From Methanolinea sp. (GTDB lineage Archaea > Halobacteriota > Methanomicrobia > Methanomicrobiales > Methanospirillaceae): a stretch of DNA of 64,000 nucleotides. Shown one piece after another: positions 52,483 through 59,265 of this stretch. Where the stretch lies: NCBI GenBank assembly GCA_030055515.1, contig JASFYI010000001.1:1-64000 (forward strand). The letters are read 5' to 3'. The stretch's first letter is position 1. Every line of letters starts with the position of its first letter. A model generated the notes under the pieces. The model had not been told where the DNA came from and ran no database searches. It saw nothing but the letters and a program-made list of their open reading frames with translations. The position numbers and the translations under genes were made by a program.

Positions 52483-52890
52483 CTATTTTTTCGGTTTTTT
52501 CTTCCGGGAGCGCACCATGGAGAGGAGGTCGACGAGGTAGCTCCCCTCCCCCCGCCCGATCCCCACGACGCGCTCGTCCGTCATCGCGAGCTTCTCGATG
52601 TTCAGCTCGTAGGTCCCCGGGGCCACGATGCGGATGCTCTCCAGCCTGTCGGCGCCGAGGAGCGGGGCCTCGGGCTGTGGTTCCCCCTCCTCCTCCCCCG
52701 CGGCGGCTGCCACGGGCGCGGCGTTCACGGGAGCCGGGACCGGGGCTGCACCCCCTTCTCCCTCCTCCGCCGTCCTCTCGACGCGGGGGATGAAGACGAA
52801 CTTCTTCCCCCCGCACTCCCTGCACCCCCTCAGGATCTCGCACTCGTTCGTCCTGTACTCTCTCCCGCACCGGGCGCACTTGTGTGGCAT
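52483..52890 (-). CDS. Zn-ribbon protein of the GTPase-DUF2073 operon
   Basis: A 135-residue protein. The N-terminus has a zinc ribbon (CARCGREY and CRECGGKKFVF), a low-complexity Ala/Pro/Glu linker follows, and a C-terminal region (LESIRIVAPGTYELNIEKL) ends in a Lys tail. The ATG at 52890 has gaggtga five bases upstream; the frame extends upstream but only into the neighbouring gene. It is the third gene of a minus-strand operon. Its role is unknown; such proteins recur with DUF2073 in euryarchaea. Confidence 0.78.
   Translation of the reverse strand: MPHKCARCGREYRTNECEILRGCRECGGKKFVFIPRVERTAEEGEGGAAPVPAPVNAAPVAAAAGEEEGEPQPEAPLLGADRLESIRIVAPGTYELNIEKLAMTDERVVGIGRGEGSYLVDLLSMVRSRKKKPKK
52486..52500 (+). 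terminator. Oligo-T terminator of aIF1, within the convergent gene's Lys-rich tail
   Basis: Two T6 runs (52486-52491 and 52495-52500) lie 16 bases after the aIF1 stop. On the minus strand the same bases encode the Lys-rich C-terminus of the Zn-ribbon protein (KKKPKK). The sequence therefore has a dual role. Confidence 0.55.
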
Positions 52891-52895
52891 CCCGT

Positions 52896-53261
52896 TCACC
52901 TCGTGGAGACCCACGCGGAGAGCACGTCCTTCTCCTTGCGTATCAGGCGGAGCTGGTTTGCCGGCCCTATGACGGTCAGCCGCGATTCGTGGGGTGTCAT
53001 CCCGAGGATTCTCTTGAGGAAGCCGGGGCTCTCCTCCCGCGAGGGGTACGTCTCTATCTCGATCCCGTTGAAACCGTCGGGGAAGATCTCCCGCATCGTC
53101 ATCTCGATCAGCGTGCTCTGCTCCTCCGGGGAGAGCCCCTTCTCGAGGATGATGATCGTCCCCTGCCGGACGTGGTCGAGGATGAGGTGGACCTTCTCCA
53201 TGGAGGTGAGCTTCTCCAGTTTCTCGGACGATATCAGGTCTATCCGGACACCCTGCGTCAT
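52896..53261 (-). CDS. DUF2073 family protein
   Basis: A 121-residue archaeal protein with the pattern MTQGVRIDLISSEKLEKLTSMEKVHLILD and GTIIILEKGLSPEEQS. It matches the DUF2073 family in content and in its place beside the Era-like GTPase. Function unknown. It is separated by nine bases from the GTPase gene and five bases from the Zn-ribbon gene, so all three are in one transcript. Confidence 0.82.
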   Translation of the reverse strand: MTQGVRIDLISSEKLEKLTSMEKVHLILDHVRQGTIIILEKGLSPEEQSTLIEMTMREIFPDGFNGIEIETYPSREESPGFLKRILGMTPHESRLTVIGPANQLRLIRKEKDVLSAWVSTR

Positions 53262-53270
53262 GCCCCCCTC

Positions 53271-53912
53271 CTACCCGAAGTACTGGACCATCTTCTCATA
53301 GAGATCCTCGATGTTCCTCCCCTCTGTGCAGGAGACCGGCACGACGGGGTGCTGGGGAAATGCACTCCTGATCCGCTGTGGCATCGCGTCCGGGAGGTCG
53401 ATCTTGTTCGCGACGATGATGACGGGGAGCTTCCTGCTCTCGATGATCCCTATCATCATGATGTTCACCTGCATGAACGGGTCCTCGGTCGAGTCCAGCA
53501 TGTAGATGACCCCGTCGATGTCCTCGCGGAGCCAGTGCATGGCCTCTGCGACGCCCTCGGTCGCCTCCCTCGCCCTCGCGATGGCCGTCTCCTTGTCCAT
53601 GCCGTACTCGAGGAAGTCCCGGTAATCGATCTTCGTGGTGACGCCCGGCGTGTCCACGATGTCGATCGTGATCACGCTCCCGTTCGACCCCGTGATGCTG
53701 ATGTCTGCCTTCCGGACGGCCCGCCTCGTCTCGTGCGGGATCTCGCTCACGAGCCCCACGTCTTCGCCCGTCCAGTCCTTCGCGATCCGGTTTGCAAGCG
53801 TCGTCTTGCCCGCGTTCGGCGGGCCGTAGATTCCTATCCTTGCCTTTTTCTTCCTGAAAAAAGCCGAGAGAAATTTGGATATTCGCTTCCTCGCCTGTAT
53901 CAGGATACTCAT
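53271..53912 (-). CDS. Era-like Ras-superfamily GTPase
   Basis: A 213-residue GTPase with the P-loop GPPNAGKTTLAN near residue 29-40, G3 DTPGV, G4 NKID and a C-terminal SCTEG (G5-like). It begins with a basic N-terminal helix. Role is unknown; archaeal Era-like proteins may act in ribosome or membrane processes. An SD site (gaggtgat) stands just before the ATG at 53912 on the minus strand. It heads a three-gene operon with DUF2073 and the Zn-ribbon protein. Confidence 0.88.
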   Translation of the reverse strand: MSILIQARKRISKFLSAFFRKKKARIGIYGPPNAGKTTLANRIAKDWTGEDVGLVSEIPHETRRAVRKADISITGSNGSVITIDIVDTPGVTTKIDYRDFLEYGMDKETAIARAREATEGVAEAMHWLREDIDGVIYMLDSTEDPFMQVNIMMIGIIESRKLPVIIVANKIDLPDAMPQRIRSAFPQHPVVPVSCTEGRNIEDLYEKMVQYFG

Positions 53913-54033: not shown

Positions 54034-54045
54034 AAGGTATATAGA
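54034..54045 (+). promoter_or_regulatory. TATA box for the CBS-domain operon
   Basis: The sequence aaaggtatatag (54034-54045, tatata at 54038-54043) predicts transcription near 54066. The leader of about 44 bases ends in an ideal ggaggtga site (54099-54106) before the GTG start at 54110. The gap 53913-54033 otherwise shows only AT-rich minus-strand promoter sequence. Confidence 0.65.
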
Positions 54046-54109
54046 TTTCACTTGCCGTAATGGTAACTGCAACTTGCCCTACGGGAGTCAACACCATGGA
54101 GGTGACGTA

Positions 54110-54679
54110 GTGAACAGAACATCCGGCAACATCCACTTCAACACCCGGGTGCCGATACGCGAGGTCATGCGACGAAACCCGACGACTATCGGCTACGAGG
54201 GGACGGTTGCCCGTGCGGCAATGCTCATGTGCCGGGACGAAGTGGGCAGCTGCATCGTCCTTGGCCCTGACAACCTCCCGGTCGGCATCGTCACCGAGGA
54301 GGACATCAACTGCAAGGTCGTGGCCAAGGACCTCAAGCCCGGATCGGTCCTCGCCCGCGACGTCATGAGCACGCCCCTCATCACCATCAACGAAGACAAG
54401 TCCGTCGGGGACGCGGCACACATGATGATCAAGCACCGGGTACGTCGTCTCCCTGTTGTTGACGATGAGAACAGGGTCATCGGGATCGTCACAGTTCGCG
54501 ACATTCTCACGGTATCGACGGAGATCAACGAGTTGATGGCAGACCTCGTGGAGATCAACCGTCTTGAAGAGGTGGAAGTGGGGCTGTGCAGCAGGTGCGG
54601 CCAGATGTCAGACGACCTCCGGAAGATCGACAATAACCTCCTGTGCCCCACGTGCCGTGAGGAGGAACTGTTACAATGA
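54110..54679 (+). CDS. CBS-pair protein with C-terminal Zn ribbon
   Basis: A 189-residue protein: two CBS domains (VREVMRRNPTTI-type and ARDVMSTPLITI-type starts, residues about 10-140) and a C-terminal zinc ribbon (CSRCGQM ... CPTC, about 162-183). CBS pairs bind adenosyl nucleotides and sense energy state; the zinc ribbon might bind nucleic acid. The start GTG at 54110 has ggaggtga four bases upstream. It overlaps the next gene by four bases. First of five CBS genes. Confidence 0.85.
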   Translation: MNRTSGNIHFNTRVPIREVMRRNPTTIGYEGTVARAAMLMCRDEVGSCIVLGPDNLPVGIVTEEDINCKVVAKDLKPGSVLARDVMSTPLITINEDKSVGDAAHMMIKHRVRRLPVVDDENRVIGIVTVRDILTVSTEINELMADLVEINRLEEVEVGLCSRCGQMSDDLRKIDNNLLCPTCREEELLQ

Positions 54680-55434
54680 AGAGGGCCCGCGATTTCATGG
54701 TGGAAGTACCCCACTTCCCTTCCGACGAGAAGGTGACGAGGGTCCGGTCCGTATTGCGGGATAACTTCATCAGGGAAGCGTACGTCCACGACGAGAAGGG
54801 CCGGCTCCTCGGGTACGTGGACATCACTGCCGTCCTCCGGGTGCCTGCCACGAGGTCGGACGTGACGGTGGAGGGTTTCGTGAGGGAGGTGAGCCCTGCC
54901 CTTCCGGACGACCCTGTTGAGAGGCTGGTCGGGCGCATCAGGGCGAACGGGACGGACAGCGTCCCGATCGTCGACGAGCAGGGGAAGGTGCTCGGGGGCG
55001 TGCTCCTCTCCGATATATTCCCCGTCATCACGTCGCGCCACCCGCTCGCCGGGAAGGTGAAGGATTTCATGACGGGGGATGTGGTCACCTGCGAGACCGA
55101 GGACACGGTCACGAGGATATACAACCTCATCGTTGAGAGCGGGTACTCCGCGATCCCCGTCATGAAGCGCAAGCGCCTCGTGGGGATAATCTCCCGCAGC
55201 GACCTCCTCCGCGACGGCAGGTGGCGTCCCTCGCGCGAGGGTTCGGCAAAGACCAAGGTCGAGAGCGTGATGAAGACGCCCGTGATTACGGTCGCGCCCG
55301 ACGATGACCTGCAGTACGCCGCGGGCCTCCTCGTCAAGCACGACGTGAGCCGCCTCCCGGTCCTCGACGGCGAGTGCCTCGTCGGGATCCTCGACAGGCA
55401 CGATGTCCTGAAAGCCGTCCCGCGGGAAGGGTGA
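54676..55434 (+). CDS. Four-CBS-domain protein 1
   Basis: A 252-residue protein composed of four CBS repeats and nothing else (for example ARDFMVEVPHF, KDFMTGDVVTC and ESVMKTPVITV motifs). It would form two Bateman modules that bind adenosyl ligands. The ATGA overlap with the preceding gene shows coupling. No partner domain is attached, so the ligand and target are unknown. Confidence 0.88.
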   Translation: MKRARDFMVEVPHFPSDEKVTRVRSVLRDNFIREAYVHDEKGRLLGYVDITAVLRVPATRSDVTVEGFVREVSPALPDDPVERLVGRIRANGTDSVPIVDEQGKVLGGVLLSDIFPVITSRHPLAGKVKDFMTGDVVTCETEDTVTRIYNLIVESGYSAIPVMKRKRLVGIISRSDLLRDGRWRPSREGSAKTKVESVMKTPVITVAPDDDLQYAAGLLVKHDVSRLPVLDGECLVGILDRHDVLKAVPREG

Positions 55435-55484
55435 AGGATACCCGGTTTTTGGGGAACGGAAGAGTGAGAAGGGGTTTAGAGGGA

Positions 55485-56429
55485 ATGACACACCACGGCG
55501 AAAGATCCTACAAGCAGGGGGACAAACTCCTGAAGATGCCCGGGAAACTCGACAGGGGCCCGATCGAGTTCAAGTCACGGATCGCGGAACAGCAGGGGGA
55601 GATCATGGCAATCGCGACGAGGGACGTGGTCTCCGTCCCCCAGACGACGACCATCATCGGGGCGGTCAGCACGATGACGGAGTGCGGATTCCGCAGGCTC
55701 CCGGTCGTGGACGCGGGCTCAAAGAAGCTCCGGGGGATCGTGACCTCCGGCGACATCATCGATTTCCTCGGCGGCGGGAGCAAGTTCAACCTCGTCCAGG
55801 TCAAGCACAGGGGCAACCTGATCGCGGCGGTCAACGAGAGTATCCGCACCATCATGACGACGAACGTGACCACGCTCCCGCACACCGCGTCCCTCTCCGA
55901 TGCCATCGCGATCATCAAGGAGAAGATGACCGGTGGGATCCCGATCGTCGAGGACGAGTCCGTGCTCGCGGGGATCGTCACGGAGAGGGATGTCATGACC
56001 GTGCTCGCGAACGAGAAGGTCGCCGCGAGGGTGGAGGACATCATGAGCACGAACCTGCGCGTGACCGAGCCGGACAGCCCCATCGGGCAGGTCACCCGCG
56101 AGATGGTCCGGTACAAGTTCCGCAGGCTGCCGGTCGTCTCCGACGACGTCCTGTTCGGGATTGTCACCGCGACCGACATCATGAGGTACATCGGGAGCCG
56201 GAAGGTCTTTGACAGGATAGAGAGCGGGGACATCACCGAGGTGATGTCGCTGCCCGTGAGGACGCTCGTCTCGGGGAACCTCTACACCATATCCCCGGAC
56301 AAGAGCGCAAACGAGGCCGCCGCCGAGATGGTGCGGCGGGGTGTCGGCGCCCTGCCGGTCATCGAGGATGCCCGGCTCATCGGCCTCGTGACAGAGTATG
56401 ACCTCGTGAAGGCACTCTCAGGAGCGTGA
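55485..56429 (+). CDS. Four-CBS-domain protein 2 with N-terminal extension
   Basis: A 314-residue protein: a charged N-terminal extension of about 45 residues, then four CBS repeats (MAIATRDVVSVPQTTTIIGAV, RTIMTTNVTTLP, DIMSTNLRVTE, TEVMSLPVRTLV). ATG 55485 is chosen since gaagggg-type purine sequence precedes it; GTG at 55464 is also in frame. Fifty bases separate it from the previous gene. Role unknown, as for its neighbours. Confidence 0.85.
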   Translation: MTHHGERSYKQGDKLLKMPGKLDRGPIEFKSRIAEQQGEIMAIATRDVVSVPQTTTIIGAVSTMTECGFRRLPVVDAGSKKLRGIVTSGDIIDFLGGGSKFNLVQVKHRGNLIAAVNESIRTIMTTNVTTLPHTASLSDAIAIIKEKMTGGIPIVEDESVLAGIVTERDVMTVLANEKVAARVEDIMSTNLRVTEPDSPIGQVTREMVRYKFRRLPVVSDDVLFGIVTATDIMRYIGSRKVFDRIESGDITEVMSLPVRTLVSGNLYTISPDKSANEAAAEMVRRGVGALPVIEDARLIGLVTEYDLVKALSGA

Positions 56430-56435
56430 TGCGGC

Positions 56436-57275
56436 GTGCAGGCCAAGGACATCATGAGTTCGCCAGTCTACATCGTCGCCCCCGGCGAGAACGTTGCCCA
56501 TGCCCGGAAGATCATGCTCAAGCACAGGATATCCCGCCTGCCGGTCCTCGAGGCCGGGAAGCTCGAGGGGATCCTGACGAAGAAGGACATCGGGTACCGC
56601 CTGCGGCAGAGCGAACCGATATGGAGGAGGCGCCCCATCGACCACATCCCCGTGAGCATCCTCATGACGAGGAACCCCCTCACGATATCGCCCGACACGC
56701 CGACGAGAGACGCGGCGGGCATGATGATCGCGCACGATATCAGCGGTCTTCCCGTCATGGACGGGGGCGCGCTCGTCGGCATCGTGACCAAGTCCGACAT
56801 TCTCAAGTCCGAGACGGCGAAGAATCTCTCGCTGCGCGTCGAGGACGTGATGGAGGACGCGATCACGGTGAGCCGCTACCACTCGCTCGACCACGTGATC
56901 GACCTCATGAGGGAGAGGAACGACAAGGTGATCGTCGTGAACAACGACGGCACGCTGGCCGGCATCATCACCGAGAGCAACCTCGCGTTCTACCTCTACG
57001 AGGATGAGAAGAGGGAGATCCCGGTCAAGGACGTGGTCATGCTCCGGCGGGGCGAGTCCGCGGGGAGGAAGCAGTTCCGGTACGTCGTGGAGGCGGCCGC
57101 GGTCGCCGAGGACCTCATGTCGCGGCCGGTCATCACGATCACGGGCGACGCCCTCCTGACCGACGCGATAGAGACGATGCAGTCGCACCGCGTCAACAGC
57201 CTCGTTGTCGTCGACGGCAACGAGATCAGGGGTATATTGAAGAGAGACGACATCATACGGGAAGTGGCAAAATGA
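56436..57275 (+). CDS. Four-CBS-domain protein 3
   Basis: A 279-residue protein with four CBS repeats (KDIMSSPVYIVAPGENV, ILMTRNPLTISP, EDVMEDAITVSR, DLMSRPVITIT). The start is GTG at 56436, six bases after the preceding gene; the next gene overlaps by four bases. It is a plain CBS array without catalytic domain. Sequence similarity among the five neighbours suggests serial duplication. Confidence 0.88.
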   Translation: MQAKDIMSSPVYIVAPGENVAHARKIMLKHRISRLPVLEAGKLEGILTKKDIGYRLRQSEPIWRRRPIDHIPVSILMTRNPLTISPDTPTRDAAGMMIAHDISGLPVMDGGALVGIVTKSDILKSETAKNLSLRVEDVMEDAITVSRYHSLDHVIDLMRERNDKVIVVNNDGTLAGIITESNLAFYLYEDEKREIPVKDVVMLRRGESAGRKQFRYVVEAAAVAEDLMSRPVITITGDALLTDAIETMQSHRVNSLVVVDGNEIRGILKRDDIIREVAK

Positions 57276-58048
57276 CTGAAGAGATACTGGTAAAGGACAT
57301 CATGTCCAAACCCGTGACGATCGCGAAGTCCGCGCCCATCACGGAGGCCCTCGACAAGATGCTCGACGAGGGCGTCGATCCCCTCATCGTCCTGAACCAC
57401 GACTCGGTCGTCGGGACTGTCTCGCGCCAGAAGGTCGCCGAGAAACTCGGGACGAAGCGGAACTCGTCCATCTCGCCGACCTCGATCCACGTGGCGAGCA
57501 CCGTCGAGGAGGACTTCACGACGGTGTACCCGGACCAGGACCTCGACGTCGTCATCCCCCTCCTCCAGACGTACAAGCTCGTCGTGGTATACGACGAGGA
57601 GCACAGGCTCGTCGGGCAGGTCACGGCCGGCGACGTCCTGCGCGTCGTGCGCCCGCAGGGGAAGCTCGAGGACGTCCTTGAGCCCGCGTGCACGATCGAC
57701 GTGGACGAGAGGGTCGTCCACTGGCGCAGGAGGATGATCGACGAGGGCCTCCACAGGTGCGTCGTGACAGAGAACGGCCGCGTCGTGGGGATCGTGACGG
57801 AGACGGATGTCGCGGTCGCAATGCGGAAGTTCCGCGAGATCGTGGAGGACCGGTACCAGGACCACCGCATCCGCAACCTCCTCATCAAGGACATCATGTC
57901 GACGCCGGTCATCACGCTCCCGAAGACCGCGTCGATCGACGAGGCCGTCGACATCATGCTCTCGAAGGGAATCAGTTGTATCCCCGTCGTGGACGGGGAG
58001 AAAGTCATCGGGATGGTCACGCGGTCATCCCTCGTCAAGGCGCTCTGA
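57272..58048 (+). CDS. Four-CBS-domain protein 4
   Basis: A 258-residue protein with four CBS repeats, the first and last being clearest (KDIMSKPVTIAKSAP, KDIMSTPVITLPKTA). It ends the operon and is followed by a hairpin and T6 terminator. It overlaps the preceding gene by four bases. Predicted adenosyl-ligand sensor; target unknown. Confidence 0.87.
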   Translation: MTEEILVKDIMSKPVTIAKSAPITEALDKMLDEGVDPLIVLNHDSVVGTVSRQKVAEKLGTKRNSSISPTSIHVASTVEEDFTTVYPDQDLDVVIPLLQTYKLVVVYDEEHRLVGQVTAGDVLRVVRPQGKLEDVLEPACTIDVDERVVHWRRRMIDEGLHRCVVTENGRVVGIVTETDVAVAMRKFREIVEDRYQDHRIRNLLIKDIMSTPVITLPKTASIDEAVDIMLSKGISCIPVVDGEKVIGMVTRSSLVKAL

Positions 58049-58062
58049 GAGACCCCTCCGGA

Positions 58063-58096
58063 CTCCCCGCGCGGGGAGGGGGAGAACACCTTTTTT
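58063..58096 (+). terminator. Hairpin plus oligo-T terminator of the CBS operon
   Basis: A perfect 16-base palindrome ctccccgcgcggggag (58063-58078) is followed by a T6 run (58091-58096), 15 and 43 bases after the last CBS gene. This is a convincing terminator. Confidence 0.7.
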
Positions 58097-58173: not shown

Positions 58174-59265
58174 ATGGCAGGCAGGAACAGTGACATCTTC
58201 GGGAGAATCGGGGGGAGGGACGACATCTTCGGCCCGTTCGCGGGACGGGACCGCAGGGAGGAGATGAGGAAGACCTCGCCGGTCGCGCCCACGAAAGACG
58301 TCGCGGAACTCCTTTGGCAGATGGCCCACTGCGGTTTCCAGGGGAGGAAGCTCGGCGAATCGGTCCAGATATGGAAGGAGATGATTGCCGATCCCGAGTG
58401 CACGATCTTTCTCGGGCTCTCGGGCGCGATGCTCCCCGCGGGGATGCAGAAGGTCCTCATCGAGTTGGCACGCAGGCACTACATCGACGTCGTGGTCTCG
58501 ACCGGTGCGAACATCTTCCACGATGCCTGCGAACACCTCGGGGTCTGCCATTACATCGGGCACCACCACGTGAACGATTCCGCGCTGTACGAGAAGGGGA
58601 TCGACCGCATCTACGACGTGTTCGCGTACGAGGAGGACTTCCGGTGGGTAGACAGGGGGATCGCGCGATTCGCAGAGAAGATTGCCCCGTTCCACGGGTC
58701 ATCCCGCGCGTTCCTCGAGTTGTTCGGGGAGTGGCTCGCGAGGGCTGTCCCGGACCGCGAGTCGTTCCTCTCGACCTGTGTCCGGGAGGGTATCCCAGTG
58801 TTCGTCCCCGCGTTCTGCGATTCCTCCCTCGGAATCGGGGTCCTCATCGCCCGGCGGCGCGGTGTCCGCGTGGATATCGACCAGATCGCGGACACCGACG
58901 AGCTCACGTCCCTCGTCGAGGAGGTGAAGAGGACCGGGGTGATCTACGTGGGAGGGGGTGTCCCCAAGAACTTCATCCAGCAGACGCAGGTCATCGGGTC
59001 CATCCACGCAAAGGACCTCGGCGGCCACGACTACGCAATCCAGTACACGACGGACTCGCCCCACTTCGGCGGGCTCTCGGGGTGCACCTTCGAGGAGGCG
59101 ATCAGCTGGGGGAAGGAGTCGCCGAGGACGCGACACGTCCAGGTCCACGTGGACGCGACGATCGCGCTCCCGCTCGTCGTGTCTGCCCTCGTGGGGGAGG
59201 GGGTCTGCCGGCCTCCCCGCGCACCCGCGGTGAGGGAGAGGGTCCTGCGCCAGGGCATCGAGTGA
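58174..59265 (+). CDS. dys: Deoxyhypusine synthase
   Basis: A 363-residue deoxyhypusine synthase with the NAD-site motifs (GLSGAMLPAGMQ, VSTGANIFHD, HVNDSALYEKGIDRIYDV), the GGGVPKNFIQQTQ segment and the catalytic Lys in EEAISWGKES. It moves the aminobutyl group of spermidine onto a lysine of aIF5A. The N-terminal 40 residues are longer than in many homologues. A TATA-like attacttaac (58140-58149) lies about 28 bases before the ATG, and there is no SD site, so it is probably leaderless. Confidence 0.93.
   Translation: MAGRNSDIFGRIGGRDDIFGPFAGRDRREEMRKTSPVAPTKDVAELLWQMAHCGFQGRKLGESVQIWKEMIADPECTIFLGLSGAMLPAGMQKVLIELARRHYIDVVVSTGANIFHDACEHLGVCHYIGHHHVNDSALYEKGIDRIYDVFAYEEDFRWVDRGIARFAEKIAPFHGSSRAFLELFGEWLARAVPDRESFLSTCVREGIPVFVPAFCDSSLGIGVLIARRRGVRVDIDQIADTDELTSLVEEVKRTGVIYVGGGVPKNFIQQTQVIGSIHAKDLGGHDYAIQYTTDSPHFGGLSGCTFEEAISWGKESPRTRHVQVHVDATIALPLVVSALVGEGVCRPPRAPAVRERVLRQGIE

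Follow-up and report, generated by a model that had tools for sequence, protein, structure and literature searches.

Archaeal ribosomes are known to be held idle by proteins built from CBS domains. A survey by Madru et al. (2026; PMC13324472) describes the archaeal CBS-module families CM-1 to CM-6, which are stand-alone and often clustered, and proposes CM-1, CM-2, CM-4 and CM-5 as hibernation factors complementary to HibA; Dri and HibA are described there as blocking and protecting mature ribosomes. Three Protein Data Bank (PDB) entries, all released on 2026-01-28, are titled as the 70S ribosome of Methanosarcina acetivorans with SriA and SriB (9ZNF), with SriD (9ZNG) and with SriC and SriD (9ZNI). 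Here, we compare these systems with a cluster of five CBS-domain genes (genes 1–5) on the forward strand of contig JASFYI010000001.1 of Methanolinea sp. (assembly GCA_030055515.1), lying in a window that comprises the first 64,000 nucleotides of the contig. Judged from sequence and from these analogous systems, the cluster is most probably an inherited sri operon that would serve ribosome dormancy through stand-alone CBS modules, with the products of genes 2–5 bound to the ribosome.

The five open reading frames (ORFs) run in one direction from 54110 to 58048 and are separated by overlaps or by gaps of up to ~50 nt. ATGA overlaps join genes 1 and 2 (54676–54679) and genes 4 and 5 (57272–57275), while genes 3 and 4 are 6 nt apart and genes 2 and 3 ~50 nt; a longer version of gene 3 is possible from a GTG start at 55374. 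An earlier note on this DNA, made from the letters alone, had described these overlaps and short gaps correctly, and its view of the genes as a single operon is supported. CBS is the sole Pfam family in each of the five proteins. A search for PF00571 in the whole genome returned 45 matches, 17 of them inside the 3.9 kb of the operon. The domain missed by Pfam is CBS1 of gene 2. The AlphaFold2 model of this protein (predicted local distance difference test, pLDDT, 87.5) contains four complete CBS folds, CBS1 included, and, in the alignment with PDB chain 9znf_4, the gene-2 profile pairs CBS1 with the opening domain of that chain. The total is therefore 18 (2, 4, 4, 4 and 4 in genes 1–5), so that the claim of five consecutive CBS genes with about 18 repeats was accurate. 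Equally, the proteins consist of CBS domains only, plus a ribbon in the first, as Pfam and the conserved cysteines of gene 1 indicate.

Genes 2–5 each have a different chain of the Sri entries as their best PDB match, in every case over the full length: chain 4 of 9znf for gene 2 (1.6e-29), chain 5 of 9znf for gene 3 (5.2e-76), chain 6 of 9zni for gene 4 (5.8e-61) and chain 7 of 9zni for gene 5 (1.8e-43). The entry titles, which were taken from a fold search with the gene-2 model, combined with these matches identify chain 7 as SriD and chain 6 as SriC; from the order of the chains, chain 4 is presumably SriA and chain 5 SriB. The best match of the uS13 protein encoded in the window is a chain common to 9znf, 9zng and 9zni, which independently shows that these are ribosome entries. 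Identity to the M. acetivorans chains is ~28% for gene 2, 43% for gene 3, 41% for gene 4 and 35% for gene 5. Like SriA–D, genes 2–5 encode stand-alone proteins of four CBS domains (by Pfam for genes 3–5, by Pfam and the model for gene 2), and they share with them conserved linkers and the gene order of Methanosarcina loci. The one-to-one relationship appears both in the distinct best PDB matches and in the clades of a 123-row tree, and in Methanosarcina the genes form one cluster. These comparisons leave little doubt that genes 2–5 are one-to-one orthologues of SriA, SriB, SriC and SriD. SriA–D come from another methanogen order, and the ribosome binding seen in the entries is that of the M. 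acetivorans proteins. Gene 3 is also orthologous to MJ1225 (3KH5/3LFZ; 8.5e-87, and by the tree), whose title reads putative archaeal homolog of gamma-AMPK (AMPK, AMP-activated protein kinase) and makes no link to the ribosome.

The tree comprised 123 CBS-module proteins, was built on whole modules by a quick method and carries support from the Shimodaira–Hasegawa-like approximate likelihood-ratio test (SH-aLRT) only. Genes 2, 3, 4 and 5 fell into four clades, each enclosing its own Sri chain, with SH-aLRT values of 100, 100 (this clade with MJ1225), 100 and 99. All four clades are phylum-wide and include their own Methanosarcina orthologue, and the family labels change 10 times over the tree, which is the minimum possible. 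Since each protein has a phylum-wide clade, the duplications predate the class and the array was inherited. The proteins are supported as paralogues, but the serial duplication suggested in the earlier note is not supported as a recent event in place; recent tandem duplication was rejected because each of genes 2–5 has a separate ancient clade. Among the deeper branches, genes 4 and 5 are sisters with moderate support (85), HibA joins them at 69, and the grouping of genes 2 and 3 is unsupported (54).

The distribution of the genes was followed in a class sample of 61 genomes (60 relatives and the genome itself, with 60 loci fetched) and in a phylum sample of 120 genomes. Gene 5 was present in 61/61 and gene 1 in 57/61 genomes of the class sample, and of the 60 fetched loci of the order all had genes 3 and 5, whereas 56 had gene 1, 47 gene 2 and 45 gene 4. 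Across the phylum, gene 1 was found in 101 genomes, gene 3 in 83, gene 5 in 54 and HibA in 40. On Methanosarcina-type contigs the full order of genes 1 to 5 occurs in 22 of the 36 loci retrieved, one of which has gene 5 in two pieces; one locus of this type (L171) matches the four Sri PDB chains at 87, 95, 90 and 92% identity (genes 2–5). Of the remaining loci, some are truncated at the ends of contigs; L186 is without gene 1 and L196 without gene 2, L198–L201 hold genes 4 and 5 only (Methanimicrococcus in three cases), and L202 and L204–L206 are unrelated. Elsewhere in the phylum, one genus has genes 1–3 and genes 4–5 split over two loci, three genomes of another genus are without genes 2 and 3, several have genes 1–3 only, and many have genes 1 and 3 only. 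Such modular losses fit the pairs SriA:SriB and SriC:SriD, with a pairing that is not strict. Natural fusions join gene 2 to gene 3 (577 aa, L107) and gene 3 to gene 4 (630 aa, L094), with both proteins covered in full in each. The latter locus (G146:C5:23922-37842) is a second, incomplete sri cluster, consisting of gene 1, gene 2 and the fused genes 3 and 4, which its genome carries besides a normal one.

Gene 1 is the member of the cluster with no named counterpart among the Sri proteins. Its model (pLDDT 82.9) consists of a CBS pair, a helix and a ribbon, with no further parts, and the ribbon cysteines Cys160, Cys163, Cys179 and Cys182 are conserved in 112, 112, 112 and 113 of 113 homologues. 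The CBS pair followed by a C-terminal domain of four cysteines is the arrangement of Ta0289 from Thermoplasma acidophilum (1PVM, 2QH1), to which gene 1 is ~26% identical. Ta0289 is also the best structural match of the model, a rank that it shares with other CBS pairs (Z 17.8 over 140 residues, in an alignment that covers mainly residues 10–141 of gene 1 and barely includes the ribbon). The Fe-bound entry of Ta0289 is titled 'CBS-rubredoxin-like protein'; a search for Ta0289 in a limited collection of literature found no relevant paper. The earlier note had the ribbon protein as the part that may face nucleic acid. Because the nearest solved relative is titled rubredoxin-like, a metal or redox role for the predicted ribbon is as likely as that one. 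Three further cysteines (41, 48 and 68) in the first CBS domain, invariant in the order, were considered as a second metal site; being present in only 57, 53 and 57 of 113 proteins of the phylum, they are not a general feature.

The association of gene 1 with the sri genes is close. In the phylum sample it is present in 83/83 genomes with gene 3 and in 54/54 with gene 5, and in 82 of the 83 it precedes gene 3 by less than 2 kb, both being on one strand; in the remaining genome (G132), a fragmented assembly, the two genes are on different contigs. The spacing between genes 1 and 2 has a median of −4 nt, and in 84 of 85 pairs the two are no more than 100 nt apart. Either gene 1 or HibA is found in 119/120 genomes of the phylum sample. 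Of the 19 genomes that have no gene 1, 18 carry HibA, and these 18 come from four families (f13, f17, f21 and f23). The four families are probably Halobacteria and probably one clade, so that this cover may reflect a single event. Two other arrangements of gene 1 were observed. In family f10 (L207–L220) it stands alone, mostly between a gene of Rad51/RadA size and a gene for 2,3-bisphosphoglycerate-independent phosphoglycerate mutase, as assigned by Pfam in two loci only; in three Methanosarcina loci (L179, L182 and L184) it is doubled head to tail into a protein of 422 aa with two ribbons. The survey (PMC13324472) dropped most proteins with a single CBS pair, such as gene 1, by its cut-off, and its main text contains neither 'zinc' nor 'MJ1225'. 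As a part of this cluster, gene 1 appears new, since it falls outside both the names in the ribosome entries and the published CBS-module families.

CBS domains that bind adenylates tend to carry the motif G..[TS]..D, which is a rough proxy for such binding. Gene 3 keeps it in all four domains (CBS1–4: 112, 94, 90 and 113 of 113 rows), as an AMPK-gamma-like protein would, and its orthologue MJ1225 is a nucleotide binder. Gene 1 keeps the motif in both domains (113 and 112 of 113). In gene 4 it is kept in CBS1 (78/81) and CBS2 (79/81) and mostly lost in CBS3 (10/81) and CBS4 (24/80). Gene 2 retains it in CBS3 (87/87), with 27, 29 and 1 of 87 in CBS1, CBS2 and CBS4, and gene 5 likewise in CBS3 (92/95), with 2, 46 and 9 of 95 in CBS1, CBS2 and CBS4. 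The AMP- or ATP-responsive parts of the system are therefore likely genes 3 and 1 and the N-terminal half of gene 4, while genes 2 and 5, mostly degenerate in the motif, may be more structural. This uneven retention agrees in part with the specialised ligands proposed in the earlier note: outside genes 3 and 1, which keep the motif throughout, consistent retention is limited to CBS1–2 in gene 4 and to CBS3 in genes 2 and 5.

Some of the linkers between CBS domains are conserved at least as much as the CBS cores, and others less. The most conserved linker of gene 4 is identical to SriC at 14 of 23 positions, with W63, R64, R65, R66 and D69 kept in at least 93% of 81 rows. Other conserved linkers are residues 96–119 of gene 3 (13/24 identical to SriB), 185–204 of gene 5 (12/20 to SriD) and 57–74 of gene 2 (8/18 to SriA). 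According to the survey (PMC13324472, section 13), the loop that is functional in HibA and Dri lies between CBS3 and CBS4; because of this precedent, the conserved linkers may be read as ribosome contacts. The long basic loop of gene 4 occupies the same position as that functional loop.

Genes 2–5, like the CM families as the survey presents them, are stand-alone clustered CBS modules, and genes 4 and 5 group with HibA (at the support given above), as would be expected of CM-1, CM-4 and CM-5, an indication that comes from the tree. HibA is likewise a module of four CBS domains and is nearest to genes 4 and 5; unlike the five proteins of the window, which have CBS domains only, it carries a C-terminal HPF/RaiA domain after the module. 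The lack of this domain in all five rules them out as HibA. A PF02482 search and a profile of the HibA C-terminus detected no HPF/RaiA domain in this genome, which would make sri its main known candidate dormancy system. Dri of Pyrobaculum calidifontis (9E6Q, 9E7F) similarly acts on a single ribosome with two CBS modules, and gene 4 matches its C-terminal part (residues 434–633, 1.3e-14). Dri, however, is one fused polypeptide, whereas the modules of the window are separate ORFs and thus not Dri; the fusions of genes 2 and 3 and of genes 3 and 4 in other genomes are reminiscent of it. Membership in HhpR/CM-3 was also rejected, the best score with the NCBIfam HhpR model being 75.4 bits (gene 3) against a cut-off of 520. 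Strict exclusion between HibA and Sri does not hold either: there is only a tendency, with gene 5 and HibA together in 4 genomes versus 18 expected, by statistics that ignore kinship. These four genomes (G068, G077, G086 and G095, family f14) have sri genes together with a HibA-like protein of weaker score (E ~1e-32) and so depart from the exclusion that has been reported.

If the orthology extends to function, genes 2–5 would make SriA–D, with SriA and SriB on one 70S complex and SriC and SriD on another. By analogy with Dri and HibA, the proteins may occupy the empty tRNA, mRNA and peptidyl-transferase sites by means of their conserved inter-CBS loops, which would hold unused ribosomes in an inactive and protected state when energy is short. 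Gene 1 might load, release or regulate the Sri proteins according to metal/redox or adenylate state. Tentatively, it could be a fifth component, sensing metal (redox) and adenylates, that attaches to idle ribosomes or to Sri proteins and acts as a switch for their loading or release; any direct role of gene 1 in ribosome dormancy we rate as possible, somewhat short of an even chance. The multi-protein energy sensor that the earlier note had put forward as one possible function of the array gives way, as a main function, to the orthologues of genes 2–5 having been solved on the 70S ribosome.

Several observations weigh against the dormancy operon with gene 1 as a working part. The term hibernation for Sri derives from the PDB titles and from what the survey (PMC13324472) says of CBS modules, and ribosome binding and a dormancy role in this organism would follow from orthology and analogy. 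The order of the window loses genes 2 and 4 and keeps genes 3 and 5, which breaks the SriA:SriB and SriC:SriD pairing. HibA occurs also in 4/54 genomes positive for gene 5 (all of family f14) and in 22/83 positive for gene 3. At the thresholds used, 15 of 120 genomes have gene 1 but neither gene 3 nor gene 5, and 4 of the 61 class genomes have gene 5 without gene 1; moreover, gene 1 is unnamed in the ribosome complexes. A search in a limited collection of literature found no paper describing SriA–D, and gene 1 may be described elsewhere. Some of these points feed a rival view that we take seriously while giving it less than even odds: genes 2–5 are ribosome-bound dormancy factors, and gene 1 acts only as a co-transcribed regulator, such as a sensor of redox state or metal that works on the operon DNA or mRNA, and never sits on the ribosome. 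Its absence from the titles and CBS chains of 9znf, 9zng and 9zni, its occurrence alone in some genomes, the rubredoxin-like title of Ta0289 as the nearest full-length structure and a conserved leader element upstream of the operon all agree with such a regulator. A protein found wherever gene 3 (83/83) or gene 5 (54/54) is found, whose gene overlaps gene 2, looks more subunit-like, and the model of a CBS pair, helix and ribbon alone also speaks against a regulator.

Two further alternatives question the role of the whole array. The five proteins could form an AMPK-gamma-like adenylate sensor for an enzyme or kinase elsewhere, with ribosome binding a speciality of Methanosarcina, which would suit the orthology of gene 3 with MJ1225 and the four mostly kept motifs of gene 3. 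Four different family members sit on M. acetivorans ribosomes, though, several linkers that they have in common with the proteins studied here (14/23 in gene 4, 12/20 in gene 5) equal or exceed the CBS cores in conservation, and the cluster is syntenic with translation genes, so that we regard this as highly improbable. Only slightly less improbable is that the proteins serve the assembly of ribosomes or the quality control of their subunits instead of hibernation. The PDB titles, which speak of ribosome complexes and do not use the word hibernation, leave room for it, and most loci of the order, as well as 17 of 60 other loci of the phylum, have an Era–OapB–OapC block next to the cluster (L031–L128). 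Yet the structures are of 70S ribosomes, not of assembly intermediates, and the relatives Dri and HibA act, as the survey reports, on mature ribosomes.

Under the dormancy reading, a block of genes that is uncharacterised and order-wide is explained as a ribosome dormancy operon, and the SriA–D system is extended beyond Methanosarcina. Gene 1 is singled out as a protein that may govern the entry of archaeal ribosomes into dormancy or their return from it; if this is true, no other piece of the system would be as widespread in the phylum, given the 119/120 genomes with gene 1 or HibA. Such a switch would fit naturally into the life of methanogens, which come through starvation and sudden exposure to oxygen.

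Table 1. Coordinates of the operon, its conserved loops and its flanking features, in positions of the window
Feature	Position	Strand	Description or basis
Gene 1	54110..54679	+	189 aa; two CBS and C-terminal four-cysteine ribbon; Ta0289-like
Gene 2	54676..55434	+	252 aa; four CBS; orthologue of SriA (9znf chain 4; A/B naming from chain order)
Gene 3	~55485..56429	+	314 aa; four CBS; orthologue of SriB (9znf chain 5; A/B naming from chain order) and of MJ1225
Gene 4	56436..57275	+	279 aa; four CBS; orthologue of SriC (9zni chain 6)
Gene 5	57272..58048	+	258 aa; four CBS; orthologue of SriD (9zng/9zni chain 7)
Gene 4 linker CBS1–CBS2	56592..56660	+	residues 53–75; holds WRRRPID; candidate ribosome-contact loop
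Gene 4 long basic loop CBS3–CBS4	56997..57107	+	residues 188–224; present in 9zni chain 6, 11/37 identical
TATA box TATATAGA	54038..54045	+	aligned in 6/6 same-genus upstream regions, with variants
Leader element GGTAACTGCAA	54062..54072	+	between TATA box and start codon; TAACTGCAA identical in 6/6 same-genus sequences
Shine-Dalgarno GGAGGTGA	54098..54105	+	sequence; same-genus upstream alignment
GC palindrome and T6	58063..58096	+	possible non-canonical terminator; sequence, scan, fold
Divergent neighbour operon	52483..53912	-	Era-like GTPase 53271–53912, OapB 52896–53261, OapC 52483–52914; Pfam

Upstream of the operon, the TATA box noted earlier is present, with variants, throughout the same-genus regions compared, and the leader element that follows it is a possible regulatory site. 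The 3' end is less clear. A palindrome (58063–58078) and a T6 run (58091–58096) exist as the earlier note had them, but the run starts 12 nt after the end of the palindrome, a terminator scan called none at 58063–58096, and the minimum-energy fold places the T run within a stem. The claim of a hairpin/T6 terminator is therefore doubtful and weaker than originally put. On the other flank, the block of the Era-like GTPase, OapB and OapC suggests that these origin-associated proteins are linked with ribosome biology. Directly downstream of the operon lies a gene for deoxyhypusine synthase (58174–59265), followed by uS13 and uS4, and these translation-related surroundings are kept in many loci of the order.

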